From the NCBI RefSeq assembly GCF_004010155.1, contig NZ_RRYH01000013.1, positions 62,001 to 126,000 of the forward strand: 64,000 bases of DNA, given 5' to 3'. Numbering within the stretch: position 1 is the stretch's first letter; each line of letters starts with the position of its first letter. This document shows positions 30,165 through 47,896 of the stretch, piece by piece. The DNA is from Solirhodobacter olei (lineage in GTDB: Bacteria; Pseudomonadota; Alphaproteobacteria; Rhodobacterales; Rhodobacteraceae). Both the position numbers and the translations under genes were made by a program. The notes beneath the pieces were generated by a model that did not search any database, had not been told where the DNA came from, and saw only the letters and a program-made list of their open reading frames with translations.

Positions 30165-30969
30165 GACGCGCCCGCCCGTCGACACCAAGCAGCAGCCCGG
30201 GTTCGCCACGATGGCGGCGATCTGCCTGGTGCTGCTCTACGGCCCGATTCTGGTGCTCATGGTGTTCTCGCTGAATAGCGGCAAGATCGTGATGCACTGG
30301 GAGGGGGTCAGCCTGCACTGGTACGCCGTCGCCTTCCAGGATGCCGATTTCCACAGCGCGGCGAAGAACACCATGATCATCGCCGTCACCGCGACGGTCG
30401 TCTCCACCGCAGCGGCGACGCTCGCCGCGATCGGGATGACCCGGGTACGCCCCTGGAAGGGGCTGACCGCCGCCTTCATGGTGATCAACCTGCCGCTGAT
30501 GGTGCCCGAGATCGTGACCGCAGTGGCCACGCTCTCCTTCTTCGCGCTAATCGCGGGGGCCTTCGGGATCAACCTCGGCATCGGCAACCTGATCATCGCC
30601 CATACCGTGTTTTGCATCCCCTTCGCCTATATGCCGATCCGCGCGCGCCTCGAGGACATGGACCTGACGCTCGACCATGCTGCGGCGGATCTCTATGCGC
30701 CGCCGTGGAAGACGTTCCGGCGGATCACCCTGCCGCTTCTGGTGCCCGGGATCATGTCAGGCGCGGCACTCGCCTTCATCGTCTCGTTCGACGATTTCAC
30801 CATCACCCAGCTGGTTGCCGGCCCTGGCCAAACGACGCTTCCGCTCTTCATTTGGAACCAGATACGGCGACCGATGACGCCGGAAGTCAATGCTATCTCG
30901 ACCATCCTGCTTTCGGTGTCGATCCTTCTCGTCGCGGTCTCGTTCCTGATCACGCGGCGCCGGAGATAA
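30157..30969 (+). CDS. potC: PotC-type ABC permease
   Basis: 270 residues from the ATG at 30157, which overlaps the potB stop by 8 bases and has GGGAAG upstream. Membrane segments begin with ATMAAICLVLLYGPILVLMV; the EAA-like loop is DHAAADLYAPPWKTFRRITL. The motif FIVSFDDFTITQLVAGPGQT is the hallmark of PotC/PotI permeases. It pairs with PotB to form the translocation pore of the polyamine-type importer. potD follows 45 bases later with its own strong ribosome site. Confidence 0.88.
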   Translation: MARTRPPVDTKQQPGFATMAAICLVLLYGPILVLMVFSLNSGKIVMHWEGVSLHWYAVAFQDADFHSAAKNTMIIAVTATVVSTAAATLAAIGMTRVRPWKGLTAAFMVINLPLMVPEIVTAVATLSFFALIAGAFGINLGIGNLIIAHTVFCIPFAYMPIRARLEDMDLTLDHAAADLYAPPWKTFRRITLPLLVPGIMSGAALAFIVSFDDFTITQLVAGPGQTTLPLFIWNQIRRPMTPEVNAISTILLSVSILLVAVSFLITRRRR

Positions 30970-31014
30970 GACTGTTCAATAACGATAACAGAAGTCCAAC
31001 AGAGGAGAGATAGA

Positions 31015-32043: not shown

Positions 32044-32057
32044 ACCGTGCAAACGCG

Positions 32058-32086
32058 CCGGAGGGGGATGCCCCTCCGGACTTTTC
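32058..32086 (+). terminator. Rho-independent terminator after potD
   Basis: A 9-bp perfect stem, CCGGAGGGG (32058-32066) and CCCCTCCGG (32071-32079), closes a GATG loop and is followed by ACTTTTCC. It begins 15 bases after the potD stop. The next gene starts only about 18 bases after the stem, so readthrough or an internal promoter must supply it. Confidence 0.75.
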
Positions 32087-32096
32087 CGGACGCCCG

Positions 32097-33299
32097 ATGT
32101 CACCACCGTCCTATCGCAACTCGGATCCCCCGCCCGCGATCATGCAGGGGTCTCCGCCCGGTCTGATCGTGCCCCGCGCCGACTGGGACCGGCCACCCTG
32201 GAACCGCTGGGCTTTCCAGCACATCCGTGAGCTTTTGCCCACGGTTGAGGTCTGGCGCGGAGGTGGCCCGGTGCGAGAGCTACCGCGTGCCGAACGCGAT
32301 CTGGACGATCTCGAGGTGACGCTGACCGGCGGCGAGACGGGCAGCCTCGCCGAGCTTCTGGACGAGACTTACACAGACGGCTTCATCGTGTTGAAGGACG
32401 GTGCCATCTTGTTCGAGCGCTACTTCAACCACATGACGCCGCGTTCGCTCCATTTGTCACAGTCGGTTGCCAAGACCGTAGTCGGAACGACAGCGGGTAT
32501 TCTCGTTGGTAAGGGGATACTCGATCCTGAAGCGCCGGTGACGCGCTATCTGCCCGAGCTGGAAGCGACCGGCTGGCGTGGGGCGAAACTCCGGCATGTG
32601 CTCGACATGACCTCGGGGACGCGCTTTGGCGAAGCCTATACCGACCCCTATTCGGACATCGGCCAGGTCGACGTCGCCTCCGGCTGGAAACCGGTGCCCG
32701 GCGGGGCGGACCCGGATTTCATCTGGCCGGCCCATGTCTGGGACCTGATCCTCGGGCTGACGGAAACCACCCGCCCACATGGCATGCGCTTCGAATACCG
32801 CTCGATCGAGACCGATGTGCTGGCCTTCTGCATGGAGCGGGCGACCGGCCGCCGGCTTGCGCGGATCGTTTCCGAGGAGCTGTGGCAGAAGATGGGGGCG
32901 GAAGAGAGTGCCTGTTTCACCGTCGATCCGGCGGGCTACGCCCTCGCAGACGGGGGCTTCAACGCAACCCTGCGCGACTATGCCCGCCTCGGCCAGCTGT
33001 GGCTCGACGGCGGCGTCGTTCCGGTGGACTGGATCGCCGACAGCCGCAAGCGCAACGATGCGCTCTATCCGCCCGAGGCCGAAGACAGCCTGCCGGGCGG
33101 TGCCTACCGCAACATGATCTGGAACGGCGGCGACGGAAGCGTGCTGATGGCGCGCGGTGTGTTTGGACAGCTGATCTACATCGACTTTGCCCATGACCTC
33201 GTCGCGGCGAAGCTGTCGACTTGGCCGGACTTTCTCAGCCCGTCGCTGGAAGCGGCGACGCGCGGTGCCGTGCGGGCGATCGCGCGGGCGCTAAGCTAG
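32097..33299 (+). CDS. SxxK serine hydrolase (class C beta-lactamase / 6-aminohexanoate hydrolase type)
   Basis: 400 residues. The catalytic Ser-x-x-Lys is SVAK (Ser123-Lys126) and the second motif Tyr-x-Ser lies in FEYRSIETDVL. DMTSGTRFGEAYTDPYSD is also typical of the 6-aminohexanoate-oligomer hydrolase/esterase branch rather than true beta-lactamases. No signal peptide, so probably cytoplasmic. It lies between the Pot-type transporter and an amidase, suggesting hydrolysis of an imported amide- or ester-containing amine (inference). The start ATG follows the terminator closely. Confidence 0.8.
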   Translation: MSPPSYRNSDPPPAIMQGSPPGLIVPRADWDRPPWNRWAFQHIRELLPTVEVWRGGGPVRELPRAERDLDDLEVTLTGGETGSLAELLDETYTDGFIVLKDGAILFERYFNHMTPRSLHLSQSVAKTVVGTTAGILVGKGILDPEAPVTRYLPELEATGWRGAKLRHVLDMTSGTRFGEAYTDPYSDIGQVDVASGWKPVPGGADPDFIWPAHVWDLILGLTETTRPHGMRFEYRSIETDVLAFCMERATGRRLARIVSEELWQKMGAEESACFTVDPAGYALADGGFNATLRDYARLGQLWLDGGVVPVDWIADSRKRNDALYPPEAEDSLPGGAYRNMIWNGGDGSVLMARGVFGQLIYIDFAHDLVAAKLSTWPDFLSPSLEAATRGAVRAIARALS

Positions 33300-33447
33300 G
33301 GGCGGGCCTCCTCGCTCCGGCGAGAGGCGGCGTCTGGCAGGCAGAGTAGCGCCGTCCTCCGCCCGACCCAGGGCTGGGGTCTTCCGACAGCACCTATAGA
33401 CACCACAGCCCCGCCGCATAGTGTGGCTGCAATCAAGGGAGGCGCCG

Positions 33448-34881
33448 ATGATCGAAGGCTATGCAGAGATGGACGCGACGGCACTGGCTGCGCTGGTCGC
33501 CCGCGGCGAGGTGACGCCTGACGAACTGCTGGACTCGGCGCTTGAGGCGACCGAGGCGCTGAACCCCAAGCTGAATGCGGTCGTGCTGATCCAGGAGAGC
33601 GTGGCCCGCGCCGCGATCTGCGCGGGTCTGCCGCGCGGCCCGCTGCACGGGGTTCCTTTCCTGATCAAGGACCTCGGCTGCGAGGCAGTCGACTTTCCCT
33701 CGCACAACGGCTCCCGCCTGTTCATGAATACGCGCTACTCTCGTGATAGCGCGATCTTCGAGCGCATCAGGGGCACGGGCTGCGTTCCCTTTGCGCGGAC
33801 GACCTCGCCAGAGGGCGGCATCGGCCCGGCGACCGAGGCGGCCGTCTACGGCGGCCCGACCCGCAACCCGTGGGATCTCGACCGTACCTCCGGCGGCTCC
33901 TCCGGCGGCTCTGGCGCTGCGGTGGCGGCCGGCATCGTCCCGGCAGCCCACGGATCGGACGGGGGCGGATCGGTGCGCATCCCGGCATCCTCCTGCGGTC
34001 TCTTCGGCTTCAAGCCGACCCGTGCGCGGCTTCCCGACGGTCCGTTTGCCGGTGAAGGCTGGGCCGGCATGGCGATCGACGGTTTTCTCACCCGTTCGGT
34101 TCGCGACACGGCCCTCCTGCTCGACGCCTGCGAGGGGGCCGACCCTGGCGCACCGTACTGGGCGCCGCCCCTCGGGCGCGGCTATGCCGCCTCGATCTCC
34201 CGCCCCCCGCGCCGTCTTCGCGTCGCGCTATGCGAGACGACGCTGACCGGCGCCCCGGTCCACGCCGATTGCCGGGCAGCTGCCCACGAGGCGGCGAAGC
34301 TGCTTTCCAGCCTCGGCCACCATGTCGAGCACGCGCGTCCGGAAGTCGACACCGAGCCGATGATGCGCGCCTGGACCGACATCGTTGCCTGTGGCACGGC
34401 GCTTTCGATTGGAAAGGCCCTCAAGGGCCGCCCGCTCGGCCCGGATGAGATCGAGCCGGTTTCGCGCAGCGCCATTGCCCATGCCGCCACCATCCGCGGC
34501 ACCCGCTACCTGGAGGCCGTCGGCATCGTCCATGCCTACGGCCGCCAGATGGCCGGCTTCTTCGAGGACTGGGACATCCTGCTGACCCCGACGCTTGCAG
34601 AGCCCCCTGCGAAGATCGGCCGCTTCGGCCACAGCCGCGACGATTACGTCGCGTTCCGCACCGGTCCCGACGGCGTCTTCGCCTATTCCCCCTATACCGC
34701 GGCATTCAACGCCACCGGCCAGCCTGCCGCCTCCGTACCGCTCCACATGAATGCGCAGGGCCTGCCCATCGGCATTCACCTTGCCGCGCGGTTCGGTGCC
34801 GACGAGGAGCTAATCAGTCTGTGTGCCGAGTTGGAGCTCGCGGCGCCCTGGGCCCAACGTCGCCCGCCCCTCCACGCTTGA
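33448..34881 (+). CDS. Amidase-signature family amidase
   Basis: 477 residues from the ATG at 33448, with GGGAGG upstream. The amidase-signature triad is complete and correctly spaced: Lys74 ([10 protein letters not shown]), cis-Ser151 ([15 protein letters not shown]) and nucleophile Ser175 ([13 protein letters not shown]), 24 residues apart as in known enzymes. These hydrolyse carboxamides to acid and ammonia. Last gene of the polyamine-type cluster; its stop lies 3 bases before the IS6 inverted repeat at 34885, so the element sits exactly at the gene's 3' end without damaging it. Confidence 0.87.
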
Positions 34882-35573: not shown

Positions 35574-35900
35574 TCAGTTGTCCAATTCGATCTCAACGTC
35601 CAGCAGAGGAGCATATTGCTGCGCTCCGAAGATATCGCCGTCCCCGGCGCTGCCGCTTGGGCGGTCGCGCAGGATCGTGAACTTGATCGCATAGGCGGGG
35701 TCGTATTCGACAAAGTCGGTGATCCGGTTCGGATTGATCTTCAGCAGTTGGCTGACACTCTGGCGGGTCAGCGCCCGGGAGCGCTTGACCTGTTCATAGG
35801 CCGCGGCCTCGCGGAAGATGACGTCGAAGGTGATCTTGTCCGTTCCGGCGTTCTTGCTTCGGATCGTCTTGGCGAGGTCGCTCAGCTTCATTGTGGTCAT
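35574..35900 (-). CDS. DUF4387-domain protein
   Basis: 108 residues. It has the usual opening KLSDLAKTIRSKNAGTDKIT, then FDVIFREAAAYEQVKRSRAL and PAYAIKFTILRDRPSGSAGD, which mark DUF4387. This small domain is either fused to, or encoded beside, AtuA-family (DUF1446) proteins. Here it follows the AtuA-family gene by 13 bases, presumably as its partner subunit. Biochemical function is unknown; by analogy it may take part in hydration or lyase steps on branched acids. Start ATG has GGACACGCC upstream. Confidence 0.85.
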   Translation of the reverse strand: MTTMKLSDLAKTIRSKNAGTDKITFDVIFREAAAYEQVKRSRALTRQSVSQLLKINPNRITDFVEYDPAYAIKFTILRDRPSGSAGDGDIFGAQQYAPLLDVEIELDN

Positions 35901-35913
35901 GGCGTGTCCTGTC

Positions 35914-37293
35914 TCAAGCGTCCGAGGTGGCGGCTTCGCCGATGGTCGCGGTTTGCGTCGGGAAAAGAGAGAGCGGGTTGTCGATCCGCATCGTGTGGTT
36001 GAGCGTCCAGCGATGGGCCGGGCTGGCCGGCAGCACCTCGTCCAGAACGAAGGACACGCCGCCCGCGGTTCCCTTCACATCGGGAAGGCGGGCGTAGAAC
36101 AGCTGCCGGGTGCCGGTCATGGTGACTTCCTCTGCCATTTCGCGCGTGGGGGCGAGGCCCTGCACCACGACCAGCAGCTCGTGCCCCGGCTGGTCGCGGA
36201 GCGGTTCCAGGGGGCCCATGATACCGTCTCGGCCGAAGACGTTGTAGTGCAGCTCCCAGCCCTCGGGCCCGAACCGCTCGACGACCTGAGCACGGCTCCA
36301 GGCGATGACCTCGTCCACGTTGGCGATGGTGTAGGGATCGCGGATGCCGGCCATGCCCACGAAGCGCTCGCCGACCTTGCCGGAGCCTTCCAGCTTCACC
36401 CGCAGCTCAGTCGCCGGAACGAAGCGCATGCCGGTAACGCGGGTCGTCTTTTCCGAGACCTGTTGATAGTGGCAGTCGGTCATGTCCAGCAGCCCGCCCG
36501 CTACGTATTCGTGGTAGGGGTTGGAGCGTTCGTACATCGCGTGACCGGCGACCGAGGCGACGGTGCAACGCTGGCCGGGATGCATCGCGGTGACTTCCAC
36601 CCAGTCGTTTGTGATCTCGCCCAGAACGGTTTCTTTGGCGCCATAGGGTTCGGCGCAGAAGGACGCGCATTCCAGAACCTTGCCGAGGTAGTAGGCCTGC
36701 GCCTCGGGGAAGCCGTGGAAAAGCGCGGGGGCAGCGAAGATTGCGCTGTCGGAACTGCGGCCGCCGATAATGACATCGCAATCCTGTGCGAGGAGCTCCA
36801 CGAAGGGGTGGACGCCTGCCATGGCGACGACGCGCGTCGTCGCGTCGAGTTCGTCCTCGGTCAGGTCCGGGCGGGCGTCGAGGCCGGCAACGGCATGGCC
36901 GGAGCTGATCTGGGCGCGGACGAGCTCACGGTCGACTTCCGAGTAGAACCAGCCGATGCGGAATGGCGGCAGGTCGTGACGCCGTGCGATCTTGCGGATC
37001 ATCTCGACATACATGTCCACGCGCGAATTGGTGCCGGTGTCGCCAGCCGATCCGATCAGCATCGGCACGCCCAGTTCCCGCGCGGCAAGCAGCATGTGTT
37101 CCAGGTCGTGTTCCTGCCAGGCCGCGGGGCTTGCGCAGGTATCCGTCCCGAGCGGCACGGGCCCGATGTCGTCGCTGCCGGAATCGGCGGCGATGTAATC
37201 GGGCTTAGCCGCCACGCCGAGCCGGAAGCTTTCAACCTTCAGGGGGGCAAATCCCAGGTGGCCGTTCGGGCAGATGATCTTGAGCGACTTCAT
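35914..37293 (-). CDS. AtuA-family (DUF1446) protein
   Basis: 459 residues from the ATG at 37293 (GGAGAG upstream), which gives MKSLKIICPNGHLGFAPLKV; an upstream in-frame start is unlikely. Conserved blocks are DYIAADSGSDDIGPVPLGTD, GSAGDTGTNSRVDMYVEMI, DVIIGGRSSDSAIFAAPALF and TRVTGMRFVPATELRVKLEG. The family is named after AtuA of the acyclic terpene utilisation cluster, whose exact reaction is unsettled. It is transcribed from a near-perfect sigma-54 promoter 34-49 bases upstream and is followed by DUF4387. The neighbouring activator and transporter suggest catabolism of an imported compound. Confidence 0.86.
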   Translation of the reverse strand: MKSLKIICPNGHLGFAPLKVESFRLGVAAKPDYIAADSGSDDIGPVPLGTDTCASPAAWQEHDLEHMLLAARELGVPMLIGSAGDTGTNSRVDMYVEMIRKIARRHDLPPFRIGWFYSEVDRELVRAQISSGHAVAGLDARPDLTEDELDATTRVVAMAGVHPFVELLAQDCDVIIGGRSSDSAIFAAPALFHGFPEAQAYYLGKVLECASFCAEPYGAKETVLGEITNDWVEVTAMHPGQRCTVASVAGHAMYERSNPYHEYVAGGLLDMTDCHYQQVSEKTTRVTGMRFVPATELRVKLEGSGKVGERFVGMAGIRDPYTIANVDEVIAWSRAQVVERFGPEGWELHYNVFGRDGIMGPLEPLRDQPGHELLVVVQGLAPTREMAEEVTMTGTRQLFYARLPDVKGTAGGVSFVLDEVLPASPAHRWTLNHTMRIDNPLSLFPTQTATIGEAATSDA

Positions 37294-37326
37294 GGGGCTC
37301 TCCAGCAATTCCGTCATCAACATACA

Positions 37327-37342
37327 TGCAAGTTACGTGCCA
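37327..37342 (-). promoter_or_regulatory. Sigma-54 (-24/-12) promoter of the AtuA-family gene
   Basis: On the minus strand: TGGCACGTAACTTGCA. This matches the RpoN consensus TGGCACG-N4-TTGCW at every fixed position with exact spacing. It lies 34-49 bases before the AtuA-family ATG in the 152-bp gap downstream of the sigma-54 activator gene, placing the transcription start about 20-25 bases before the coding region. Confidence 0.85.
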
Positions 37343-37445
37343 GTTCGGATCGGAAACATAACATGCTGTGATAAAATGATAATATATGAACGGCGGGTGG
37401 GGTGGCCCGTCGCCTGCGCGGATTGCGCGCGTCATGAAGGGATTT

Positions 37446-38453
37446 TCACGCGTCCAGAATGCCGAGCTTCAACATCTGGTGGCGCAGGGCGTGGCGGCTG
37501 ATCTTCAGCGCTGTTGCCGCCTTCTGCAGATTGTTCTCCGCGTCCTTCAGCGCCCGGACGATCAGCTCCCTCTGAAAGGCCGCCGTCGCATCGTGAAAGC
37601 CTCCCTCGGGCGGCAGGGCGGCCGAATAGGCATGGCCGCCGGTCGAAGAGGATGGCCCGCCCGCGCGAACGGTGCGCAGGATGCGGTCGGGCAGATGTGT
37701 GGGAAGTACCACGTCGTCATCTTCCAGGATGAATATCCGCTCCAGCAGGTTCTCAAGCTCCCTGACGTTCCCGGGCCATGGGTACTGCAGGAAGATCTGC
37801 GCAACCTCGTCGCTCAGTCCGCTGATCCGGCGGTCATATTGGCGGTTGAACTTGTCGATGAAGTGCCGTGCGAGAATGAGCACGTCGTCCCCCCGGTCGC
37901 GTAGCGGCGCGATATTCAAGGCGACGACCTGGAGCCGGTAGTAGAGGTCTTCGCGAAAATGTCCGGCATTCACCTCGGACAGAAGGACCTTGTTGGTCGC
38001 CGCAATGTAGCGCACATCGACGGTGGTCGCGCGCACGCCGCCAACGCGGCGGAATTGATGCGTGTCTAGCAGCGTCAGCAACTTCGCCTGTAGCGTCAGC
38101 TCCATCTCGCGGATCTCGTCGAGGAATACGCTGCCCCCGTCGGCCGCCTCGATCAGGCCGATCTTGCGTTCGATCGCCCCGGTGAAGGCGCCCTTCTCAT
38201 GGCCGAAGAGCTCGGACTCCATCAGGCCCGCCGGGATGGCGGCACAGTTGATCTCGGCGAATTCGCGTTTCGCGCGGGATGACCCGCGATGCAGCATCCG
38301 CGCCACCAGGCCCTTTCCGGTGCCGGTCTCGCCATAGATCAGGACTGTCCGCACTGGGCTCTTCGCCACCCGCTCGATCAGGCTGCGCAGGGTGCGGATG
38401 CTCTCGTGCTGACCGATCAGGCCGTCGTTGTATTGCGCCATTTCCCTGTCCAT
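37446..38453 (-). CDS. Sigma-54-dependent activator without N-terminal sensory domain
   Basis: 335 residues from the ATG at 38453. The protein starts almost directly with the AAA+ domain: Walker A YGETGTGKGLVARMLH (residues 40-55), the sigma-54-contacting loop GAFTGA (88-93), Walker B GGSVFLDEI, then the R-finger region REDLYYRLQVV and PWPGNVRELENLLERIF. A Fis-type helix-turn-helix is at the end (LQKAATALKISRHALRHQML). There is no receiver, GAF, PAS or V4R domain; the upstream in-frame extension is just antisense of the preceding gene. It is last in the transporter operon and lies between the two sigma-54 promoters it probably activates. Confidence 0.9.
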   Translation of the reverse strand: MDREMAQYNDGLIGQHESIRTLRSLIERVAKSPVRTVLIYGETGTGKGLVARMLHRGSSRAKREFAEINCAAIPAGLMESELFGHEKGAFTGAIERKIGLIEAADGGSVFLDEIREMELTLQAKLLTLLDTHQFRRVGGVRATTVDVRYIAATNKVLLSEVNAGHFREDLYYRLQVVALNIAPLRDRGDDVLILARHFIDKFNRQYDRRISGLSDEVAQIFLQYPWPGNVRELENLLERIFILEDDDVVLPTHLPDRILRTVRAGGPSSSTGGHAYSAALPPEGGFHDATAAFQRELIVRALKDAENNLQKAATALKISRHALRHQMLKLGILDA

Positions 38454-38467
38454 GCGGCCCCCGCGGT

Positions 38468-39559
38468 CTAGAGGCGCATGAGGTGCCAAGGGCCGGTGCA
38501 GGGGTTGTCGAGGCAAGCATACATGAGCCGCGACGCGCAGCAATAAACGACGCTGGAGATCGTGCGCGTGCCGCCCGCATCCGGGTGCTGGCAGAGTGGC
38601 CCCGCCTGCGAAGCATCCCCGCGATGCGTGGCCATGAGCCGAGCTGCCCTCTGTGCCGACCACTCGGCACCGGGCACGGTTCGATCAAGAAACGCACGTC
38701 GGTCATGCGACGTATCCTCGATCGTGCTTACGGGATCGGTCAGGGTTTCCAGTGCAAGCATCGTCGAAGTGAAATGGTTCGTTCGACACACCCGCGGCGC
38801 CATCTCGACGGCGACCGCGGTGGTGCCCAACTCGATCGCTGCAACGTCGCCCTGCGCATCCGCCATCACCAGACTGCCGCCGCCAACGTGAGGTTGCGCG
38901 CGGATGAATCGGACTGCATCCGCGACCGACGCGAACTGCGACAGCAGCCGGGTCATTAGGAAATAGCGTAGCCAGCCGGGGCGATGCCGGTGGGTACCGA
39001 TCTGCGTGTCCACTATGGCGAGGCCTGCGCCATTCATCCCGCTGGAATATGCGCCGGGGCTGCCAAGGCTGCCCAAGCAGAACATCGGGCCTTGTGCCAG
39101 ATCCGGCCCCTCGTGCCGAAAGACACGTTGAATGCCAGAATGGGCGCCAGAGAAATCGCGGTTCTTGACGACGATCGGACCGTCCTTGCCGCCATCGACC
39201 GCCCAAGCGCTGCATCCGTCCGAAAGACCGTCCGGCACCGCGGATAGATCATGCAGGATCCCCAGGTGCAGGGCGGCGAACAGGCGATCAACGGGTATAC
39301 CGAAGCCCTCGGCGACGCCAGAGAGCTCCTCCAGTTCCGGCATGCAGCTACTGCGGGCGAAGGCCATCTGTGCATCGAGGAACTGACCAGCCCGGGTGGT
39401 CAGCAGTCCTTTGGTCTCGGCCTCCGTCAGCCGGTCGGCGGTGACCCGACGCACCGCATCGCAGGCTGCACGCCCGGCGGCGGCCTGAGCCAGCCCCCGT
39501 TGGAAGGGCGTCCCTTCGAGCGCGAAGGGTTCGGCATCCGCAGGAGGCCACGTGCTCAT
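38468..39559 (-). CDS. C45-family autoproteolytic acyltransferase/amidohydrolase
   Basis: 363 residues from the ATG at 39559, which overlaps the ABC-ATPase stop (ATGA). It resembles the peptidase C45 family (acyl-CoA:6-aminopenicillanate acyltransferase-like Ntn hydrolases): GLSDGCSAWAVDGG supplies the Gly115-Cys116 autocleavage site with Cys as N-terminal nucleophile. PIVVKNRDFSGAHSG and SLGSPGAYSSGMNGAGLAI are typical Ntn-fold strands. Such enzymes cut or form amide bonds in peptides and acyl amides. It is co-transcribed with a peptide-type ABC importer, suggesting it processes the imported substrate. Confidence 0.8.
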   Translation of the reverse strand: MSTWPPADAEPFALEGTPFQRGLAQAAAGRAACDAVRRVTADRLTEAETKGLLTTRAGQFLDAQMAFARSSCMPELEELSGVAEGFGIPVDRLFAALHLGILHDLSAVPDGLSDGCSAWAVDGGKDGPIVVKNRDFSGAHSGIQRVFRHEGPDLAQGPMFCLGSLGSPGAYSSGMNGAGLAIVDTQIGTHRHRPGWLRYFLMTRLLSQFASVADAVRFIRAQPHVGGGSLVMADAQGDVAAIELGTTAVAVEMAPRVCRTNHFTSTMLALETLTDPVSTIEDTSHDRRAFLDRTVPGAEWSAQRAARLMATHRGDASQAGPLCQHPDAGGTRTISSVVYCCASRLMYACLDNPCTGPWHLMRL

Positions 39560-40572
39560 GCAGTCACCTCTTCCTGCAGGTTGAGGTCTTCGCCCAGTCG
39601 GTGGCAGGATGCATGGTGGCCGATGCCGAGCGTCTGCGACGTCGGAGACTGACTGCGGCAGAGGTCGGTCGCCAGCGGGCAGCGCGTGTGAAACTTGCAC
39701 CCGCTGGGTGGATCGAGCGGCGAGGGAAGATCGCCCATCAGCCTGACACGGTGCCGCCCGCCCTGTGCCTCGACCTTGGGCACTGCGGACATCAGCGTTT
39801 GCGTGTAAGGGTGTCGCGGCCGTTCGAGGATTGCCTGGACCGGGCCGATCTCTACCACCTCTCCCAGATACATCACGGCGACGCGGTCACTGAGGTAGCC
39901 GATCACCGAAATGTCGTGCGAGATGAAGAGGTAGGTCAGCCCCATGTCACGTTTGAGGTCGGACAGGAGCTCGATGATCTGGGCCTGGATCGACACATCG
40001 AGCGCCGAGACAGGTTCGTCGCAGACGATGAACTCCGGACGGCTGACAAGGGCGCGGGCGATGCCGATCCGCTGGCGCTGACCGCCCGAGAACTGGTGTG
40101 GATACCTGTCCAGATGCGCGGTCTTGAGGCCGACCTTCTCGATGATCGCAGCGACCATGTCCCGCGTCTCGGCCTTACCCCTGGCGAGGCCGTGAAGCCG
40201 CAGAGGCAGACCCACGATATCGGCGACCGTGCGCCGGGGATTGAGAGAGGCATATGGGTCCTGGAAGATGATCTGCATCCGCCGCCGCATCGCCTTCATC
40301 TCGTGCGGTGGGAGGGACGATACGTCGATGCCGTCGAAACGAATGCCGCCTCGCGTGGGCTCGTGCAGCCGCAGAATTGTCCGGCCTAGCGTCGATTTTC
40401 CACAGCCGCTTTCTCCGATCAGGCCGAGGATCTCGCCCCGCTCGACGGACAGGCTGACATCGCTGACGGCCTTCACCTCCAGCGTCGGCCGGCCCATCAG
40501 ACGGCCGACGATGCTGGGTGTGCCGCGGTAGACTTTCGTCAGGCCCGTGACGGACAGCAGCGGTTCAGCCAT
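39556..40572 (-). CDS. Oligo/dipeptide-type ABC transporter ATPase (DppF/OppF-like)
   Basis: 338 residues from the ATG at 40572, overlapping the previous ATPase stop by 8 bases. Walker A GLIGESGCGKSTLGRTILRL, Q-loop IIFQDPYASLNPRRTVADIV, signature FSGGQRQRIGIARAL, Walker B FIVCDEPVSALDVSIQAQII. The C-terminal oligopeptide-transporter extension has the Cys-rich GCKFHTRCPLATDLC block, which can bind an Fe-S cluster in this family. The KVYRGT plus long insert near the N-terminus is typical of the F subunit. Partners with the D-type ATPase next to it. Confidence 0.9.
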   Translation of the reverse strand: MAEPLLSVTGLTKVYRGTPSIVGRLMGRPTLEVKAVSDVSLSVERGEILGLIGESGCGKSTLGRTILRLHEPTRGGIRFDGIDVSSLPPHEMKAMRRRMQIIFQDPYASLNPRRTVADIVGLPLRLHGLARGKAETRDMVAAIIEKVGLKTAHLDRYPHQFSGGQRQRIGIARALVSRPEFIVCDEPVSALDVSIQAQIIELLSDLKRDMGLTYLFISHDISVIGYLSDRVAVMYLGEVVEIGPVQAILERPRHPYTQTLMSAVPKVEAQGGRHRVRLMGDLPSPLDPPSGCKFHTRCPLATDLCRSQSPTSQTLGIGHHASCHRLGEDLNLQEEVTA

Positions 40573-41581
40573 GAGCCTCTCCCCCATCGTGAAGGCGAAT
40601 GCATCGGGCCTTGCGGCCGGGGCCTGAGCTTTGCATGTGAATGCGGGCAAGGCAGCCCAGACCGGCCTCGGGGCAGCGGGAATGAAAGCGGCATTGCTCC
40701 GGCAGGTTGATCAGTTCGGGCACCTGTCCCGTGATCGGGTGGATCTTCTCGCCCCGCAGGGCGGGACGTGGAATCGATGCCAAAAGGCCCTTCGTGTAGG
40801 GGTGGCGCGGATCACCGATGACGGCCTGCGTCGGTCCCTCTTCGACGACCTCGCCGGCATACATCACCATCACCCGGTCGCAATGCTCGGCCACCACGGC
40901 AAGGTCATGGGTGATCAAGACGACGCTCATCCCCAGCTTTGCACGGATATCGGCAATCAGTTCCAGAACCTGCGCCTGGATTGTCACGTCCAGCGCGGTG
41001 GTGGGTTCGTCCGCAATCAGGAGTTTCGGGCGCGAGGAGAGTGCGATAGCGATCATCATGCGTTGCCGCATTCCGCCCGAGAATTCGTGCGGGTATTGGC
41101 GCAGTCTTTCGGTGGGGGAGGGGATGCCGACGAGGCGCAGCATCTCGACCGCGCGGTCGGTGATCGCCCGGCGGCGTGCCGGACCGCGACGGGGCAGGCC
41201 CTCGTCATGCGCTTCCAGCACCTCGGAGATCTGTTCGCCGACGGTAAGCGCGGGGTTCAGCGCGGTCAGCGCGTCCTGCATCGTCATCGCGATGTCCCGG
41301 CCACGGATCGCCCGCATCTGCCGGGGCGATAGCGTGCGCAGGTCCTGCCCGTCGAAGCGGACGGTTCCCGCCTCGATCTGCCCTGGTGGCCGGATCAGTC
41401 CCATGACCGAGGCGAAGGTGACGCTCTTGCCGGAGCCGGACTCCCCCACGACCCCGAGGCATTCGCCCCGCCGGACGATGACGTCGACGCCATCGACGGC
41501 GCGCACAGCGCCCGCTCGGGTATGAAAGGCGGTGCGCAGCCCCGCGACTTCAAGAAGGTATCCGGGAAGGGGCGCGGTCAT
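40565..41581 (-). CDS. Oligo/dipeptide-type ABC transporter ATPase (DppD/OppD-like)
   Basis: 338 residues, ATG at 41581 overlapping the permease stop (ATGA). Walker A GVVGESGSGKSVTFASVMGL (the SVT variant typical of D subunits), Q-loop TMQDALTALNPALTVGEQIS, signature FSGGMRQRMMIAIAL, Walker B LLIADEPTTALDVTIQAQVL. It ends with the oligopeptide C-terminal Cys block (QCRFHSRCPEAGLGC). Forms the heterodimeric ATPase with the DppF-like protein. Part of a seven-gene leftward operon driven by the sigma-54 promoter at 45.1 kb. Confidence 0.9.
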   Translation of the reverse strand: MTAPLPGYLLEVAGLRTAFHTRAGAVRAVDGVDVIVRRGECLGVVGESGSGKSVTFASVMGLIRPPGQIEAGTVRFDGQDLRTLSPRQMRAIRGRDIAMTMQDALTALNPALTVGEQISEVLEAHDEGLPRRGPARRRAITDRAVEMLRLVGIPSPTERLRQYPHEFSGGMRQRMMIAIALSSRPKLLIADEPTTALDVTIQAQVLELIADIRAKLGMSVVLITHDLAVVAEHCDRVMVMYAGEVVEEGPTQAVIGDPRHPYTKGLLASIPRPALRGEKIHPITGQVPELINLPEQCRFHSRCPEAGLGCLARIHMQSSGPGRKARCIRLHDGGEAHG

Positions 41582-42471
41582 TCGTGGAACCTCGGGTCGA
41601 AGGCATCGCGCAGGCCCTGGCTCGCCACGTTCAGCGCCAGCACAAGCAGCAGGATGGCCAGGCCGGGGAAGGTGCTCACCCACCACGCCTGCATGATGAA
41701 GGCGCGCCCGTCCGCCACCATCGCGCCCCAGGACGCGGTCGGTGGCTGCACCCCGAGACCAAGAAAGCTGAGACTGGCCTCAAGGATGATCACGTTCGCC
41801 ATGCGGATGGTCGACACGACAATAACGGGTGACAGGATGTTGGGCAGGATTTCCCGTAGCATGATGTGACGGTTCGAGGCACCGAGTGCCCGCGCGGCCT
41901 CGACATATTCCTGTTCGCGCGTGGCAAGTGTCTCTGCCCGGACAACGCGGCAGGGGATGACCCATTCCTTGTAGACCAACGCCAGGATGATGTTGCCCAA
42001 CCCGGCGCCCATCATCGCCATCAGGCCGATCGCGAAGATCAGGTAGGGAAAGCCCAGCAGGATATCTACAGTGCGCGAGATGATCGTGTCGACCCAGCCG
42101 CCCAGATAGCCCGCGGCAAGGCCGGCAAGGATGCCAATGCTGGTCGCGATGAAGACCACCGTTGCCCCCACGAGCATTGACACGCGCGAGCCATAGATGA
42201 TGCGCGACAGGATATCGCGGCCAAGGGCGTCGCAACCCAGCACGTGGGCCCAGTCGCCGCCCGCTTGCCAGGCCGGCGGTTGCAGGCGGCGGAAGAGGTC
42301 CGTCGCGTTCGGATCCTGCGGCGCGATGAGCGGCGCGAAGAGCGCCAGCGCGACGAAGATCAGAACGAGGATCGCGCTGCCAGCGGCAAGGCGGTTCTCT
42401 GCGAAGACGGCGAGGTTGCGCAGCAGCAGCGATTGGGACGGGGTGGGACGGGTCACTGCGGCATCGCTCAT
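41578..42471 (-). CDS. Oligo/dipeptide-type ABC permease (DppC-like)
   Basis: 297 residues. Cytoplasmic N-terminus then AAGSAILVLIFVALALFAPL as first membrane helix; HVLGCDALGRDILSRIIYGS is the hallmark segment of the C permeases. The EAA loop is YVEAARALGASNRHIMLREI. Six membrane segments are expected. Its ATG overlaps the stop of the DppB-like gene (ATGA) and its stop overlaps the DppD-like ATG. Confidence 0.9.
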   Translation of the reverse strand: MSDAAVTRPTPSQSLLLRNLAVFAENRLAAGSAILVLIFVALALFAPLIAPQDPNATDLFRRLQPPAWQAGGDWAHVLGCDALGRDILSRIIYGSRVSMLVGATVVFIATSIGILAGLAAGYLGGWVDTIISRTVDILLGFPYLIFAIGLMAMMGAGLGNIILALVYKEWVIPCRVVRAETLATREQEYVEAARALGASNRHIMLREILPNILSPVIVVSTIRMANVIILEASLSFLGLGVQPPTASWGAMVADGRAFIMQAWWVSTFPGLAILLLVLALNVASQGLRDAFDPRFHE

Positions 42472-43475
42472 AGTTTCACCCGCGGGTTCAGGAAGGTGTA
42501 GAGGATGTCGGCGACGAAGTTCAGAAGCACGTAGGTGACCGCATAAAGCAGCACCGCCGCCTGGACGAGCGGGTAGTCCCGAACGAAGATGCTGTCGACC
42601 ACCAGCCGCCCCAGCCCGGGCCAGCCGAAGACCGTCTCGACGATCATGTTGCCGCCAAGCAGGGAACCGGTCTCGATCGCGGCGACCGAGACGGTCGGGA
42701 TCAGCGCGTTCTTCAGGGCATGGCGGATCAGGATGCGGGTCCGTGACAGACCCTTTGCTTCGGCAAAGGTGATGTAGTCCTGCCGCAGCACTTCCAGCAT
42801 CGAGGTGCGCGTGACGCGCATCAAGACGGCCGTCATCGGCAGGCCAAGCGTGATGGCGGGCAGCAGGATATGCTTCAGGGCATCAAGGAAGGCCGCGGGA
42901 TCGCCGCGCAACAGCGTATCGATCAAAAGGAAACCGGTGATGGGTTTGATGCTGGTCGCGAACCCCATCCGGCCAGAAACGGGCAGGATGTGCAACTGCA
43001 CGGCGAAGAGCATCAGCAGCAGGATGCCGAACCAGAAGCCGGGTAGCGAGACCCCCAGAAGCGATCCGACCGTCGCCAATTTGTCTAGCACAGAGTTCTT
43101 CTTGACGGCGGCCAGAACGCCAAGCGGAATAGCCGTCATGAGGGCGATTAGAAGCGCTACCACGCTGAGTTCGATAGTGGCCGGCAGGCGTTCGGCGATC
43201 ACCTGCGCGACGGGCCGCTTGTAGTAAAAGCTTTCACCGAAATTGCCTGTCGCGGCATGGCCGATGAACAGGGCCAGGCGTTCGTAGGCGGGACGATCCA
43301 GCCCCAGATCGTGACGCAGTTGGGCTTCCTGTGCCGCGGACACGTTCTGGTCGCCGATCATGATCTGAACGGGGTCGCCGGGGGTCATTGCCATCATCAG
43401 AAAGACGATGACGCTGACCCCCAGAAGCACCGGCACGAGCTGCACCAGACGTTCCACGAGTTTGGTGAGGGACAT
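42468..43475 (-). CDS. Oligo/dipeptide-type ABC permease (DppB-like)
   Basis: 335 residues. First helix LVPVLLGVSVIVFLMMAMTP leads into GDPVQIM, the conserved start of B permeases. RHDLGLDRPAYERLALFIGH and FGESFYYKRPVAQVIAERLP follow; the EAA-type loop is FAEAKGLSRTRILIRHALKN, and VETVFGWPGLGRLVVDSIFV near the end is diagnostic. Six membrane segments. It lies 24 bases downstream of the substrate-binding protein gene. Confidence 0.9.
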   Translation of the reverse strand: MSLTKLVERLVQLVPVLLGVSVIVFLMMAMTPGDPVQIMIGDQNVSAAQEAQLRHDLGLDRPAYERLALFIGHAATGNFGESFYYKRPVAQVIAERLPATIELSVVALLIALMTAIPLGVLAAVKKNSVLDKLATVGSLLGVSLPGFWFGILLLMLFAVQLHILPVSGRMGFATSIKPITGFLLIDTLLRGDPAAFLDALKHILLPAITLGLPMTAVLMRVTRTSMLEVLRQDYITFAEAKGLSRTRILIRHALKNALIPTVSVAAIETGSLLGGNMIVETVFGWPGLGRLVVDSIFVRDYPLVQAAVLLYAVTYVLLNFVADILYTFLNPRVKL

Positions 43476-43499
43476 GCCGGTGTCTCCGATATAGCGGGC

Positions 43500-45014
43500 T
43501 TACTTCAGGCAGGCCTTGACGAGGTTCAGCCGGCCGTCGGGGCTTGGCTGCCAGCCGCTCAGACGCTTCGAAACGCCATAGATGTCCTGAGGCACCCAAA
43601 GGTAGATGTAGGCGACATCCTTGGCAGCGATCGCCTCGGCCTGTTCATACATCGCAGCGCGCTTGGCACGATCGACCTCCACGGCTGCGCCGTCCAGTAG
43701 CTTGTCCACCTTGGGGTTTGAATAGCCCGAGGAATTGCCGCGGCCATCGGTGTGATGCGTCGGCATGAAGATCCCCTGCGGGTCAAGCGAACCGTTGCCC
43801 CACGACGTGAAGTACATGTCGCCCGTCTTCGGCTTGCCCATGGTGCGCCACTTCGAGCCCAGCATAGCGCTTTCGCCGACCTGAACCTTGGTCGTGATGC
43901 CGCCCTTCGCCATAAGCGAGGCAACGGCTTCCGCCGTGTCCTTGTCGGGGCCGGTTACATCCATCGTGACCTTGATGCCGTTGGGATAGCCCGCTTCCTT
44001 CAGCAGTTTGCGCGACAGCGCGGGATCGTAGGCCAAGCCTTTCAGCGCCTTGTTCTTGCCGAAGGCGTCCGGGCTGAGAATGCCGTTGATCGCCACTGCA
44101 TGGCCGCCCAGGATCTTGTTGATGACCAGCGGCTTGTCGATGGCATGGGCGATCGCCTCGCGCACCCGGATGTCGGTGAACGGCTTTTCCGTCAGGTTCA
44201 TCGCTATGAAATAGCTGCGGGTACCGTTGACGAAGACTGCCTTGGCATTGCCGCTCGCGTTCACCTGCGACACGGCATAAGGGGGCAGGTGGTCGATGAT
44301 CTGCGCGTCCCCGGCCAGAAGCGCCGCAACGCGCGAGGAGGATTCCGGAATCGTCTTGAAGATCACGCGATCGACGCAGGCCTTGCCGCCCCAGTAGTCG
44401 TCAAAACGCTTCATCACGACCGAGTCACCTTTGTTCCACTGAACAAGCTGGAACGGACCAGTGCCGTCTTCCTGCGTGGCCATGCCGGCCGTGCCGACCT
44501 TGCCGACGAACGCCTTCGAGACGACCTCCTGGAAGGGTAGCATGGCTGGAAGCAGCGACCAGGGCGCGGACAGGGTAACGCGCAGGGTATCCCCGTTCAC
44601 CACGTCCACGGACTTGATCGGTCCAAGCAGGCTTTGGCGCGGGCTGGTCTGGCCGTCGCCAAGTCCGCCCTTTTCCCAGATCCGATCGAGCGTGAATTTC
44701 ACGTCTTCGGCGGTCATCGTGCTGCCGTCGTGGAACTTGACGCCTTTACGGATCTTGAACTCGTAGACCGTGGGCGAGATCTGCTTGTAGGACTCGGCCA
44801 GCTGCGGCACGACGTGCATCGCAGGATCGCGGGTCAGGATGCCGTCGTACATCTCGCGGATGATTGTTTCCGTGTTCGTGTCGCGGTGGTTGGCCGGGTC
44901 AAGCGTGGCGGCATCCGCGCTGAAGCCGATCACCAGGTCCTTCGCGGCAACGGTCTGGCTTGTCGCGCCAAAGGCGATCAGCGCGGCCAGACCGGCGCTG
45001 GTGAGCTTTCTCAT
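43500..45014 (-). CDS. Periplasmic substrate-binding protein, family 5 (peptide-type)
   Basis: 504 residues with a Sec signal peptide (RKLTSAGLAALIAFGATS, cleavage after VAA). Family 5 solute-binding marks: DLVIGFSADAATLDPANHRD, IIREMYDGILTRDPAMHVVP, KIRKGVKFHDGSTMTAEDVK and GTGPFQLVQWNKGDSVVMKR. Family members bind peptides, opines, glutathione, or other amides; this ligand is not deducible. First gene of the transporter operon, with a sigma-54 promoter 84-99 bases before its ATG. The strong expression expected for a binding protein fits that promoter position. Confidence 0.9.
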   Translation of the reverse strand: MRKLTSAGLAALIAFGATSQTVAAKDLVIGFSADAATLDPANHRDTNTETIIREMYDGILTRDPAMHVVPQLAESYKQISPTVYEFKIRKGVKFHDGSTMTAEDVKFTLDRIWEKGGLGDGQTSPRQSLLGPIKSVDVVNGDTLRVTLSAPWSLLPAMLPFQEVVSKAFVGKVGTAGMATQEDGTGPFQLVQWNKGDSVVMKRFDDYWGGKACVDRVIFKTIPESSSRVAALLAGDAQIIDHLPPYAVSQVNASGNAKAVFVNGTRSYFIAMNLTEKPFTDIRVREAIAHAIDKPLVINKILGGHAVAINGILSPDAFGKNKALKGLAYDPALSRKLLKEAGYPNGIKVTMDVTGPDKDTAEAVASLMAKGGITTKVQVGESAMLGSKWRTMGKPKTGDMYFTSWGNGSLDPQGIFMPTHHTDGRGNSSGYSNPKVDKLLDGAAVEVDRAKRAAMYEQAEAIAAKDVAYIYLWVPQDIYGVSKRLSGWQPSPDGRLNLVKACLK

Positions 45015-45097
45015 GGGTCAGTCTCCCGTGTTTGGACTTGTAGGCGTTTTCGCTCTTGAACGTCGGCTCTGATATGAGACGCCGTCAGCTGGATACA

Positions 45098-45113
45098 TGC
45101 AAATTTGGTGCCA
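45098..45113 (-). promoter_or_regulatory. Sigma-54 (-24/-12) promoter of the transporter operon
   Basis: On the minus strand: TGGCACCAAATTTGCA, matching the RpoN consensus TGGCAC-N5-TTGCA with exact spacing. It lies in the 230-bp gap between rpoN and the substrate-binding-protein gene, giving an expected leader of about 70 bases. The sequence directly upstream on that strand is AT-rich (poly-T run near 45.14 kb), which could be an IHF-type or bend region. Confidence 0.85.
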
Positions 45114-45244
45114 ACATTTCAAACCACAGGCGGCGGCTAAAAAAACCAATCATCTCAGGGCGGCTGCAGGGATGTCGGCGGAGTCTCGCCGGTCGCTTTC
45201 GACCTCTTGCGTGAGTATCACGCCAGATGAACGAAACGCACGCG

Positions 45245-46585
45245 TCAGGCCCGGGGTCTCCGCCGCGCCGCTGCGGCGCGCGCGACCGAAGAGGGCAGCC
45301 CCAACTCGTCACGGTATTTGGCGACGGTTCTCCGCTCGACCCGGATGCCGTTGGCCTGGAGCGCCGCGCAAAGCGCGGCGTCGCTGAGCGGGCGGGTCTT
45401 GTCCTCGGCCCCGATCATCTCCCCGATACGGCGTTTGAGCGCCCCGATCGACCACGCGCTGTTTCCATCCTCCGCAGGAAGGCCGCGCGCGAAGCACCGG
45501 CGTAACTCCAGAAGACCGCGCGGAGTGTCGATGGTCATACCCCGAACGATGCGGCTTACGGTGGAGGCGTGCATACCGATGGCTTCTGCCACGTTCTGCA
45601 ACGACAGGGGGGCCGGAGGTGCCTGCGGATCGGAGAGGAACGCGGATTGCCGCCGCACCACTTCGGAAGCGACGCGAAGGGCCGTCGCATTGCGCTGGTC
45701 CACGGCCCGCTTCAAGTCTCGCGCGAAGGTCAGGGCCTCGGCCTCGGTGGGGGTGCGTGTTTCCTTGTCAGTGGCCCGGTCGTCCCGCACAACGATCGTG
45801 GGCAGGGTGGTGCCGTTCAACTCGACCCGCCAGCCGTCGCGCGTGCGTTCCGTCAGGAGATCTGGGGGGCGTATCGGCGCTTCTCCGGTTTCGAGGAAAC
45901 GCGCGCCCGGCTTGGGGTCGAAGCTGCGCACGATTGCGAGGTGGTCTTGAACGGCCTCAAGGGAGATGCCGCACACCTCGGCCAGTCGGTCCGGACCGTC
46001 CTCGGCAAGGACCGCGAGATTGTCGAGGATCTGCGCAAGGTCATCGCTCAGTACGCCTTTGTCGCGGGCCTGCAGGCGCAGACACTCCGTTAGCGACCGC
46101 GCGAAGAGGCCCGACGGCTCGAACAGCTGTAGGCGATCTAGAACCCGCTCGGCGGCCTCGACGCTGCATCCGCGGGCCTCGGCTATCTCCTCGGCGGTTT
46201 CGCCAAGCCAACCATAGGGTTCGAGAGCTTCCAGAAAACCAAAGGCGATGTGCCGGTCCCCGGGATCGGCGAGCGACAGGGAGATCTGCTGCGCGACATG
46301 CTCCACGAGGCTTGCCGCGGGACGCCCCAGAAGGTCGATGCCATCGCTGCCTGTCCCGTTCCAGACCTTGCGCCCGATCGCCCGGCCCCCCGGATCGACG
46401 GGCCGGCGAGGGGGCGTCACAGGTGGCGGGGTCAGTTCCAGGAAGACATTGGCCTCGGTCGTCTTGGCCAGAAAGGTGTGGAGTTCGGCGTTGTTGTATT
46501 TCAACAGGCCGATTGCCTGACGAAGCGAAGTCGTCATCGACAGCGTCCGTCGTTGCGAGATGCCCAGTGAGGGCGTCATAGCCAT
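45245..46585 (-). CDS. rpoN: RNA polymerase sigma-54 factor (RpoN)
   Basis: 446 residues, ATG preceded by AGGAGGGGG. Region I, which contacts activators, is present (GISQRRTLSMTTSLRQAIGL then LKYNNAEL). The acidic region II is short, as in other Rhodobacterales RpoN. The core-binding and -12-binding parts include LSLQNVAEAIGMHASTVSRI, and the RpoN box that reads the -24 element is ERRTVAKYRDELGLPSS near the C-terminus. It lies immediately upstream of an operon with its own sigma-54 promoter and activator. Rhodobacterales often carry several specialised rpoN copies; none of the usual rpoN neighbours (lptB, hpf, ptsN) is here, which suggests a dedicated copy. Confidence 0.92.
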   Translation of the reverse strand: MAMTPSLGISQRRTLSMTTSLRQAIGLLKYNNAELHTFLAKTTEANVFLELTPPPVTPPRRPVDPGGRAIGRKVWNGTGSDGIDLLGRPAASLVEHVAQQISLSLADPGDRHIAFGFLEALEPYGWLGETAEEIAEARGCSVEAAERVLDRLQLFEPSGLFARSLTECLRLQARDKGVLSDDLAQILDNLAVLAEDGPDRLAEVCGISLEAVQDHLAIVRSFDPKPGARFLETGEAPIRPPDLLTERTRDGWRVELNGTTLPTIVVRDDRATDKETRTPTEAEALTFARDLKRAVDQRNATALRVASEVVRRQSAFLSDPQAPPAPLSLQNVAEAIGMHASTVSRIVRGMTIDTPRGLLELRRCFARGLPAEDGNSAWSIGALKRRIGEMIGAEDKTRPLSDAALCAALQANGIRVERRTVAKYRDELGLPSSVARAAAARRRPRA

Positions 46586-47026: not shown

Positions 47027-47344
47027 TCACATTTCGAGTTCTTTGATATCTTTCCCGGCGGCGATGTGCGCTTCGATCCATTTGGGTTTCCGGCCGCGAC
47101 CGGTCCAGGTCAGGTCGGGATTTTCGGGATGCCGGTATTTCGGAGCGCCAGCGCCGCGCTTCCTGCCTGTGGTCACACCGGCAAGATCGGCGAGGGAGAA
47201 GCCGAGCTCTTTCGCCTGCGCTTCAAGCGCGGCGACGGCTTCAGCTTTCTTGCGGCTTTCGAAGTTATCGATCGCCTTGGCAACGTCTTTTTGAAGTTGC
47301 TTCAGTTCGGGCAGATCGAGGGTATTGAGGTCGAGTTTGGACAT
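47027..47344 (-). CDS. H-NS/HvrA-family nucleoid protein
   Basis: 105 residues from the ATG at 47344 with GGAGACTCCT upstream. The N-terminal helix (LDLPELKQLQKDVAKAIDNF, ESRKKAEAVAALEAQAKEL) is the oligomerisation part. The C-terminal YRHPENPDLTWTGRGRKPKW is the H-NS DNA-binding motif, in the form found in HvrA of Rhodobacter. Members bind AT-rich DNA and modulate or silence genes, including acquired ones. Its position beside acquired and regulatory genes is suggestive. Single-gene unit, hairpin downstream. Confidence 0.88.
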   Translation of the reverse strand: MSKLDLNTLDLPELKQLQKDVAKAIDNFESRKKAEAVAALEAQAKELGFSLADLAGVTTGRKRGAGAPKYRHPENPDLTWTGRGRKPKWIEAHIAAGKDIKELEM

Positions 47345-47896
47345 AGGAGTCTCCAGGCTGAATTTCGCTGTCCTATCTGTGAACGTCTGACTCTGCAATC
47401 GGATTGAGGTGCGACTGCGATGAATCGCCGATCGGTGGAAAACTGCAGGCGGCGATATTGGAATTGGATCGAGGCGGGCAGCGGGCAATAGGCCTTCAGA
47501 AGACTTCGCATCTGCCGCCAACTCTGCCGAGCGCCCGGTCGCGCGCCGTACAATGCCTCATCAAGGCCAAAGGTCTGGTATTTGAAGTATTTCGCCCGGA
47601 TCGCCCGCAATCTCTGGGCCTGATGACAGCTGAGGATAAGTCTGGGAGGTCGTGCCTTGGCCCTTCCTGTGCGAAGGGCACCGCGGCTCGAGCGCGGACG
47701 CGTTGCACCATCACGGGCAGGAACGATGTGAAATCCGCGCACCTTTCAAATGAGCGTCAGCCGATTGATTGGCCTGATCCGAAGTTCAACGGTACCGACG
47801 GCGCAATTAGAAGGGTGCTATCCACTCGGTTGGTCGTGATTATTCCCGCGGCGATCCAGCCCGCCGCGGCCTGAAATCGGCCCCTCGACGCTTTGG
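47345..47896. other. Gene-free stretch
   Basis: About 550 bp. The minus strand near 47.48-47.74 kb has an open frame (IRAKYFKYQTFGLDEALYGA) with unremarkable start signals and no recognised family; it may be a decayed gene. The right part upstream of the H-NS-like gene must hold that gene's promoter. No IS ends were recognised. Confidence 0.4.

Follow-up and report, generated by a model that had tools for sequence, protein, structure and literature searches.

A likely self-contained sigma-54 circuit, with its own rpoN gene, sensorless activator and two promoters, around an uptake-and-degradation module in Rhodobacteraceae

The window, a stretch of 64,000 nucleotides from Solirhodobacter olei (contig NZ_RRYH01000013.1, positions 62,001 to 126,000), contains a block in which a gene for the sigma factor sigma-54, rpoN, accompanies genes for uptake and degradation of a small molecule. 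Ten genes lie between positions 35574 and 46585, all open and intact on the minus strand, so the common orientation claimed in an earlier note on this DNA holds. The order is rpoN, substrate-binding protein (SBP), two permeases, two ATPases, C45 hydrolase, sigma-54 activator, AtuA and DUF4387. The rpoN gene (45245..46585, 446 aa) is intact, as that note had said. Its product has all three sigma-54 domains (AID, PF00309; CBD, PF04963; DBD, PF04552; 36, 129.5 and 159 bits, each above the Pfam cut-off), matches TIGR02395 above cut-off and carries the RpoN box ERRTVAKYR. The importer consists of the SBP (43500..45014; SBP_bac_5, PF00496), a DppB-like permease (42468..43475; PF00528, PF19300), a DppC/OppC-like permease (41578..42471; PF00528, PF12911), and DppD-like and DppF-like ATPases (40565..41581, with an inferred ATG start, and 39556..40587, start also inferred; both PF00005, PF08352). 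The C45 family autoproteolytic hydrolase (38468..39559; PF03417; NF040521 at 132.5 bits, cut-off 85) is followed by the activator (37446..38453), which starts at 38453, 14 bases past the C45 stop codon. A Walker A motif GETGTGK, a GAFTGA loop and a Fis-type helix-turn-helix (HTH) identify it as a genuine sigma-54 activator, again in agreement with the note; the boundaries given there needed correction, and the protein is about 335 aa with no N-terminal domain. The block ends with the AtuA family gene (35914..37293; PF07287) and the DUF4387 gene (35574..35900; PF14330). The AtuA start was moved from 37323 to 37293, because the second promoter described below overlaps the longer reading.

Two -24/-12 promoters divide the genes behind rpoN into two operons. 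Promoter 1, TGGCACCAAATTTGCA (45098..45113, minus strand), stands before the SBP gene, and promoter 2, TGGCACGTAACTTGCA (37327..37342, minus strand), before atuA. Each contains an exact match to TGGCACN5TTGC (45099-45113 and 37328-37342), and both continue as TTGCATGTAT. These are the only zero-mismatch matches in the window, both on the minus strand, which bears out the earlier claim of one site per operon. When two mismatches are allowed, the window has 67 matches and shuffled sequence a mean of 66. That is chance level, so the weight rests on the exact sites only; the case against chance is made by exactness, position and conservation, and not by the two-mismatch counts. The whole genome has 12 exact sites, versus 2 for the pattern read backwards. 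By open reading frame, eight are intragenic, one (L019) lies between convergent genes and three precede a gene: the two in the module and one before an xrpA-like gene (L020). The genome scan proposed in the earlier note therefore places both module sites before genes and adds a third such site outside. Sigma-54 autoregulation of rpoN is not proposed, as no site with fewer than two mismatches occurs in the 400 bp upstream of rpoN at the loci examined; two-mismatch sites are found there in L093 and, at -373, in the window.

The arrangement is widely conserved. Beyond the window's own genome, a C45 search across 394 family genomes yielded 18 with E <1e-50, and these together with one genome of the same genus found by its rpoN make up a family set of 20 stretches from 19 genomes. 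A wider scan covered the best 80 of 116 loci, or 67 after 13 duplicating family-set genomes were dropped. The rpoN-linked module occurs in 37 genomes, 34 of which carry the full set of ten genes, in the same order, on a single contig. In the family set this order is found in 15 genomes and the window; G129 has the module spread over two contigs with a gap inside, G040 and G014 have the locus without rpoN, and in G183 the contig ends at the locus. Of the 67 wider-scan loci, 20 carry a local rpoN, upstream and in the same orientation, and 18 of these have all ten genes in order, counting L248, whose rpoN is cut by the contig end. In L221 the contig stops after AtuA, and L233 has no AtuA/DUF4387 behind the activator. 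These 20 records are labelled Rhodobacterales-type or Alphaproteobacteria only, save for a Hoeflea record, which is perhaps mis-binned. The module also occurs without a local rpoN, in Rhizobiales, Burkholderiales, Rhodospirillales and others. At its expected place, AtuA is 52-97% identical to its relatives.

The promoters are conserved along with the genes. Scoring covered 87 loci, with a site counted as kept at up to two mismatches to the -24/-12 pattern. These loci comprise 36 with a local rpoN, 42 with an activator and no local rpoN seen (many of them cut by a contig end) and 9 with no adjacent activator; L096, scored as lacking a local rpoN, belongs to G129, whose rpoN lies on the other contig. 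Where rpoN is local, the site is kept in 36/36 SBP and 34/35 atuA promoters, at median positions of -92 and -52 from the start codon. Activator-bearing loci with no local rpoN seen have it in 25/31 SBP and 34/41 atuA promoters. It falls to 2/9 and 0/7 in loci without an adjacent activator, and the two positives there are L268, whose contig stops just behind C45, and L278.

A palindrome, TGCGTG-N5-CACGCA, or more broadly (T/C)GCGTG-N5-CRCGC(A/G), is found upstream of both promoters. In the window, predicted enhancer 1, GGCGTGATACTCACGCA (45208..45224, minus strand), is an instance of this comparative motif 111 bp upstream of promoter 1, and predicted enhancer 2, CGCGCGCAATCCGCGCA (37415..37431, minus strand), lies 89 bp upstream of promoter 2 with three mismatches. 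The best dyad by dyad count is present in 17/36 SBP regions, compared with at most 5 in letter shuffles. With up to three mismatches, the palindrome is found in 36/36 SBP and 35/35 atuA regions of local-rpoN loci and in 26/29 and 31/35 of the others; with up to two, the figures are 27/36 and 23/35, and 20/29 and 23/35. The mean best mismatch is 1.8-2.3, versus 4.4-4.5 in shuffles, and the palindrome stands at a median of 109 bp upstream of the SBP site and 86-108 bp upstream of the atuA site. Since the palindrome is also present in modules without rpoN, it should be the site of the activator. A composite enhancer-promoter pattern has exactly two matches in the window genome, ending at 45099 and 37328, both in the module, and one match when read backwards. 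Across the family it matches in 60 of 394 genomes, 12 at the module and 48 only elsewhere, so it was rejected as a family-wide detector and is informative within one genome. In G386 a near-identical element at C4:93511, C5:3305235 and C6:70549 matches it.

The module rpoN is not the only one in the window genome; there are two. The other (L002) sits in the setting lptB-rpoN-hpf-ptsN, gene names that we presume from the sequences, and is of housekeeping type. In an RpoN tree of 84 rows, housekeeping and other copies split at 100/100, with the two copies of this genome on opposite sides, so both the count and the tree called for in the earlier note set the module copy apart. That note would have given up the idea of a dedicated circuit for a sole rpoN serving nitrogen or flagellar genes. 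This does not apply here, as the module copy is a second rpoN, outside the housekeeping clade and linked to the module in 37 genomes. Seven PF00158 proteins of the genome were read. Thr at loop position 4 occurs only in the window activator and in L003 (GSFTGA, with a REC-type N-terminus); L005 has the loop GAFPGA, and a loop of this kind is absent from the remaining four. L003 resembles AprX of Cereibacter (Rhodobacter) sphaeroides in domain make-up. The exact site at L020 precedes an Xre gene and then a HisN-like gene, the arrangement described for xrpA (in parts of PMC11999139), and L003 and L020 are probably the known AprX/xrpA circuit. Thus the genome probably holds two sigma-54 circuits, one of housekeeping RpoN and AprX for xrpA, and the module's own.

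Natural loss supports the dependence of the module on sigma-54. Among 79 module activators, the loop is GAFTGA in 76, GSFTGA in 1 and GSFAGA in 2. The two with GSFAGA, L105 (G183) and L269 (a Boseongicola record), have no recognisable -24/-12 site at either promoter, and their genomes have no PF04552 match; G183 is rated 100% complete. Of 70 genomes in which rpoN was counted, three have none: these two and G014, where the module is present and its activator missing. Dependence on sigma-54 predicts just such a joint loss of the sigma gene, both promoters and the contact residue. In the activator tree a long branch carries L105 and L269 as sisters, so the joint loss may be one event. The pair offers a view of how sigma-54 dependence is lost, with all three parts going together.

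It is likely, we think, that the block is a self-contained sigma-54 circuit bound to one uptake-and-degradation module. The rpoN gene would be expressed from its own promoter, probably independent of sigma-54, and the module RpoN would bring RNA polymerase to both -24/-12 promoters. The sensorless activator would bind the TGCGTG-N5-CACGCA palindromes about 90-110 bp upstream and open both promoters with ATP. As the activator is the last gene of operon 1, activation would feed back on itself. A terminator was searched for between rpoN and the SBP gene and none was found, so read-through from rpoN is possible and could supply the first activator. The importer of operon 1 would take up a small compound resembling a peptide, amide or opine; the C45 enzyme, self-cleaved before Cys116, would hydrolyse an amide bond; and operon 2 would cleave the released acid, by analogy with citramalate lyase. 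A single capture of rpoN is the probable origin, by a module that is older and widespread and elsewhere relies on the sigma-54 of its host. With its own copy the module could function in a family in which rpoN is absent from about two thirds of the genomes. The private sigma circuit of the earlier note is strengthened by a second rpoN, linked to the module in 37 genomes, and by the conservation of both promoters, together with an enhancer motif that the note had missed; its exclusivity is not established, given mostly the same kind of promoter in modules without a local rpoN and a second activator in two of nine genomes whose sole rpoN is that of the module.

Several observations count against such a circuit, some of them given in the three paragraphs that follow this one. 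The second predicted enhancer in the window is weak, and its score is reached in 13 of 100 shuffles. L278 has the SBP site, yet no activator is seen in the 3.4 kb behind C45, and L254, L257, L258 and L279 have an intact activator loop without an atuA site. The module copies fail to form one clade in the free RpoN tree and require three changes there. They number 36 and fall within a group of 50 rows (98/98), alongside 14 copies from other settings. In favour of the circuit, a tree that forces the module copies together is slightly better, and a single origin is not rejected (AU test, p 0.524). The activator tree also gives three changes in local rpoN; 10 of 78 segments with a stop in the aligned stretch had been dropped, and 14 of the remaining 68 could not be scored for local rpoN because of a contig end. 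The Stappia and Saccharospirillum modules nest near rpoN-bearing ones, and their genomes have one rpoN, elsewhere. A single capture of rpoN followed by losses would fit these trees.

To account for switching of the circuit, neither a sensor domain in the activator nor a trans-acting regulator was found. The activator fits the architecture of group 4 bacterial enhancer-binding proteins: AAA+ with Walker A and GAFTGA, HTH and no regulatory domain. Its HTH_8 match is barely above cut-off (22.4 versus 22), and its best NCBIfam matches (NorR, NifA and others) are all below cut-off. A missing sensor domain is widespread: ahead of the point aligned with the window activator's start, the open frame has room for no more than 10 residues in 39 of 79 loci. 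In this it is like the group 4 or type Ic activators PspF and HrpR/HrpS, which have an AAA+ domain with GAFTGA and a Fis-type HTH and lack an N-terminal regulatory domain, and which are controlled by proteins binding in trans (PMC7175178, in the part consulted). It is therefore quite conceivable, though we lean somewhat the other way, that a module protein such as C45, a lyase subunit or an importer ATPase controls the activator in trans, as PspA does PspF, in place of simple autoactivation. The case differs from PspF and HrpR/HrpS in that the activator is encoded in an operon predicted as its target and that no PspA- or HrpV-like partner is seen; there is no dedicated small inhibitor gene within the module.

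The extra rpoN might also be linked and yet interchangeable, with either cellular RpoN driving both promoters and the linkage reflecting joint transfer. Where rpoN is not local, the module must use the host rpoN. Such modules in Rhizobiales, Burkholderiales and others have mostly the same kind of promoter, and every one of their genomes that was checked has just one rpoN, which lies elsewhere. It follows that the activator is not intrinsically tied to the module RpoN. Both promoters, which differ little from the general consensus, could in principle also be read by the second RpoN of the window genome. In C. sphaeroides, however, each RpoN copy studied pairs with its own activator on its own genes (RpoN1 with NifA, RpoN2 with FleQ, RpoN3 with AprX; PMC11999139, sections on these pairs). 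The base after TTGC, at -11, is A in 71/71 local-rpoN promoters versus 33/64 without, a difference confounded with ancestry. Among SBP promoters without a local rpoN it is T, G or C in 23 of 29. The -11 position is said to matter for the choice between RpoN1 and RpoN2 (same source, again in part), and the difference could reflect RpoN specificity. As proof of specificity it was rejected, since only one supported pair is independent. On balance we regard interchangeability as unlikely.

Some genomes appear to have no sigma-54 other than that of the module. A PF04552 match above cut-off occurs in 130 of 394 family genomes, and the module rpoN is the only such match in 15 of the 37 genomes that have it: 9 of 17 found by the family search and 6 of 20 in the wider scan (L214, L220, L221, L228, L240 and L245). 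The nine are rated 94-100% complete. Maritimibacter fusiformis HY14 and Maritimibacter sp. HL-12 are strains in which no rpoN but the module's was found; Thioclava marina has two rpoN genes. Six of the nine (G353, G152, G129, G012, G114 and G279) have no second activator with Thr at loop position 4 among PF00158 matches with E up to 1e-10. Proteins with a GAFPGA or GAMPGA loop were taken to be non-functional, in keeping with classes in which Pro or Ala at that position marks the inactive one (PMC3162934, as far as the classes are set out there). G315 (GSFTGA) and G074 (GAFTGA) each have a second, intact-looking activator, and in these two the module RpoN may have other target genes; G168 has an unclear one. 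That the module RpoN is simply the general sigma-54 of these genomes, with further targets elsewhere and the importer beside it by accident, agrees with the sole copies and with G315 and G074 and disagrees with the six genomes above, and we hold it to be very improbable. Bolder than the self-contained circuit, and in our estimate with slightly less than an even chance, is the reading of the module as a portable sigma-54 cartridge. The cell's whole sigma-54 system of one sigma factor, one working activator and two promoters would then sit within one catabolic module in six or more of the 15 genomes, perhaps in most of them. Such modules, and not nitrogen, motility or envelope functions, would preserve sigma-54 in a family from which it has largely disappeared. 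The sigma factor would be selected as an operon part and not as a global regulator.

Sigma-54 is usually viewed as a global alternative sigma factor served by several activators; here it looks reduced to part of one operon. The paired RpoNs and activators of C. sphaeroides are already known, and what we describe is an operon-bound variant. The likeness lies in the several rpoN copies of Rhodobacterales paired with activators. The differences are that the target here is a transport and degradation module; that sigma factor, activator and both promoters lie in one 11-kb block; that the activator is sensorless; and that the module rpoN is the sole copy found in 15 genomes. In C. sphaeroides rpoN2 sits inside its target flagellar locus (parts of PMC7277832). 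Flagellar-adjacent copies (L283, L287-L289) and fix/nif-adjacent copies (L284, L293, L296), their contexts read by eye, fall outside the 50-row group that holds the module copies, and the module RpoN appears to be neither the RpoN1 (nif) nor the RpoN2 (flagellar) type. The C. sphaeroides RpoN4 was rejected as an orthologue, because the likely RpoN4 copy (L286) adjoins a di-iron monooxygenase operon and not the module. A description of rpoN with the C45/AtuA family module was not found in the open-access literature searched. The module is a minimal natural system for RpoN choice of promoters and activators, and for the control of a sensorless activator in its own operon.

The degradative functions are predicted from relatives. 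The importer is like Opp/Dpp-type systems with SBP_bac_5 in having an SBP, two permeases and two ATPases. It differs in that the solved SBPs nearest by sequence are an unnamed protein (5u4o), YliB and AgaA, and the ligand is not predictable. The C45 protein is a member of its autoproteolytic hydrolase family with a predicted hydrolase activity. A profile search finds 3gvz and the acyltransferase 2x1d/2x1c, and Cys116, which we take to be the N-nucleophile, is invariant in 20 aligned sequences. AtuA and DUF4387 match the chains of PDB 9erq/9evf named citramalate lyase CmlA (E 1.8e-71) and CmlB (E 6.8e-24). Both subunits thus have homologues here as neighbouring genes, although the substrate here may differ. 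The earlier guess that a C45 product is degraded through AtuA/DUF4387 is refined by this homology. Plausibly, a 2-hydroxy acid enters as an amide- or opine-like conjugate, C45 hydrolyses the conjugate and an AtuA/DUF4387 lyase cleaves the product. In the open-access literature searched, no paper was found on CmlAB or on DUF4387; a DUF1446 gene adjoining methylaspartate ammonia-lyase is mentioned with no function assigned (PMC4682846, in part). The module gives the little-studied AtuA/DUF4387 pair a testable context. L107 (G040) holds two tandem C45 copies and two AtuA/DUF4387 pairs; the first pair is preceded by a -24/-12 site, the activator is found at the far end, and rpoN lies elsewhere in the genome.

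Other rpoN genes of these bacteria also lie beside particular operons. Divergent copies at L286:404-10487 (G051) and L292:2417-10566 (G125) are near a di-iron (PF02332) monooxygenase operon; G051 has four rpoN genes and is not among the C45 search matches, and its copy there may be of the unassigned RpoN4 type. In L285, L290, L294 and L295, rpoN of another type directly precedes a hydantoinase-A-like gene (Pfam checked for L285), which suggests that an operon-bound rpoN is a wider habit of the family. In L298:10492-15502 (G046), rpoN has a GAF-type sigma-54 activator in its vicinity, along with large genes that by eye look hydantoinase-like. Opposite-strand rpoN genes near the module at L213:1123-2520 (Paenochrobactrum, one rpoN counted in the genome) and L259:9792-11390 are of housekeeping type by tree. 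In the window itself, a small H-NS-like protein (47027-47521, by eye) is encoded upstream of rpoN on the same strand. Convergent with the module, on the plus strand at 29235-34881, are genes that by eye encode two permeases, a polyamine-type binding protein, and serine-hydrolase-like and amidase-like proteins.

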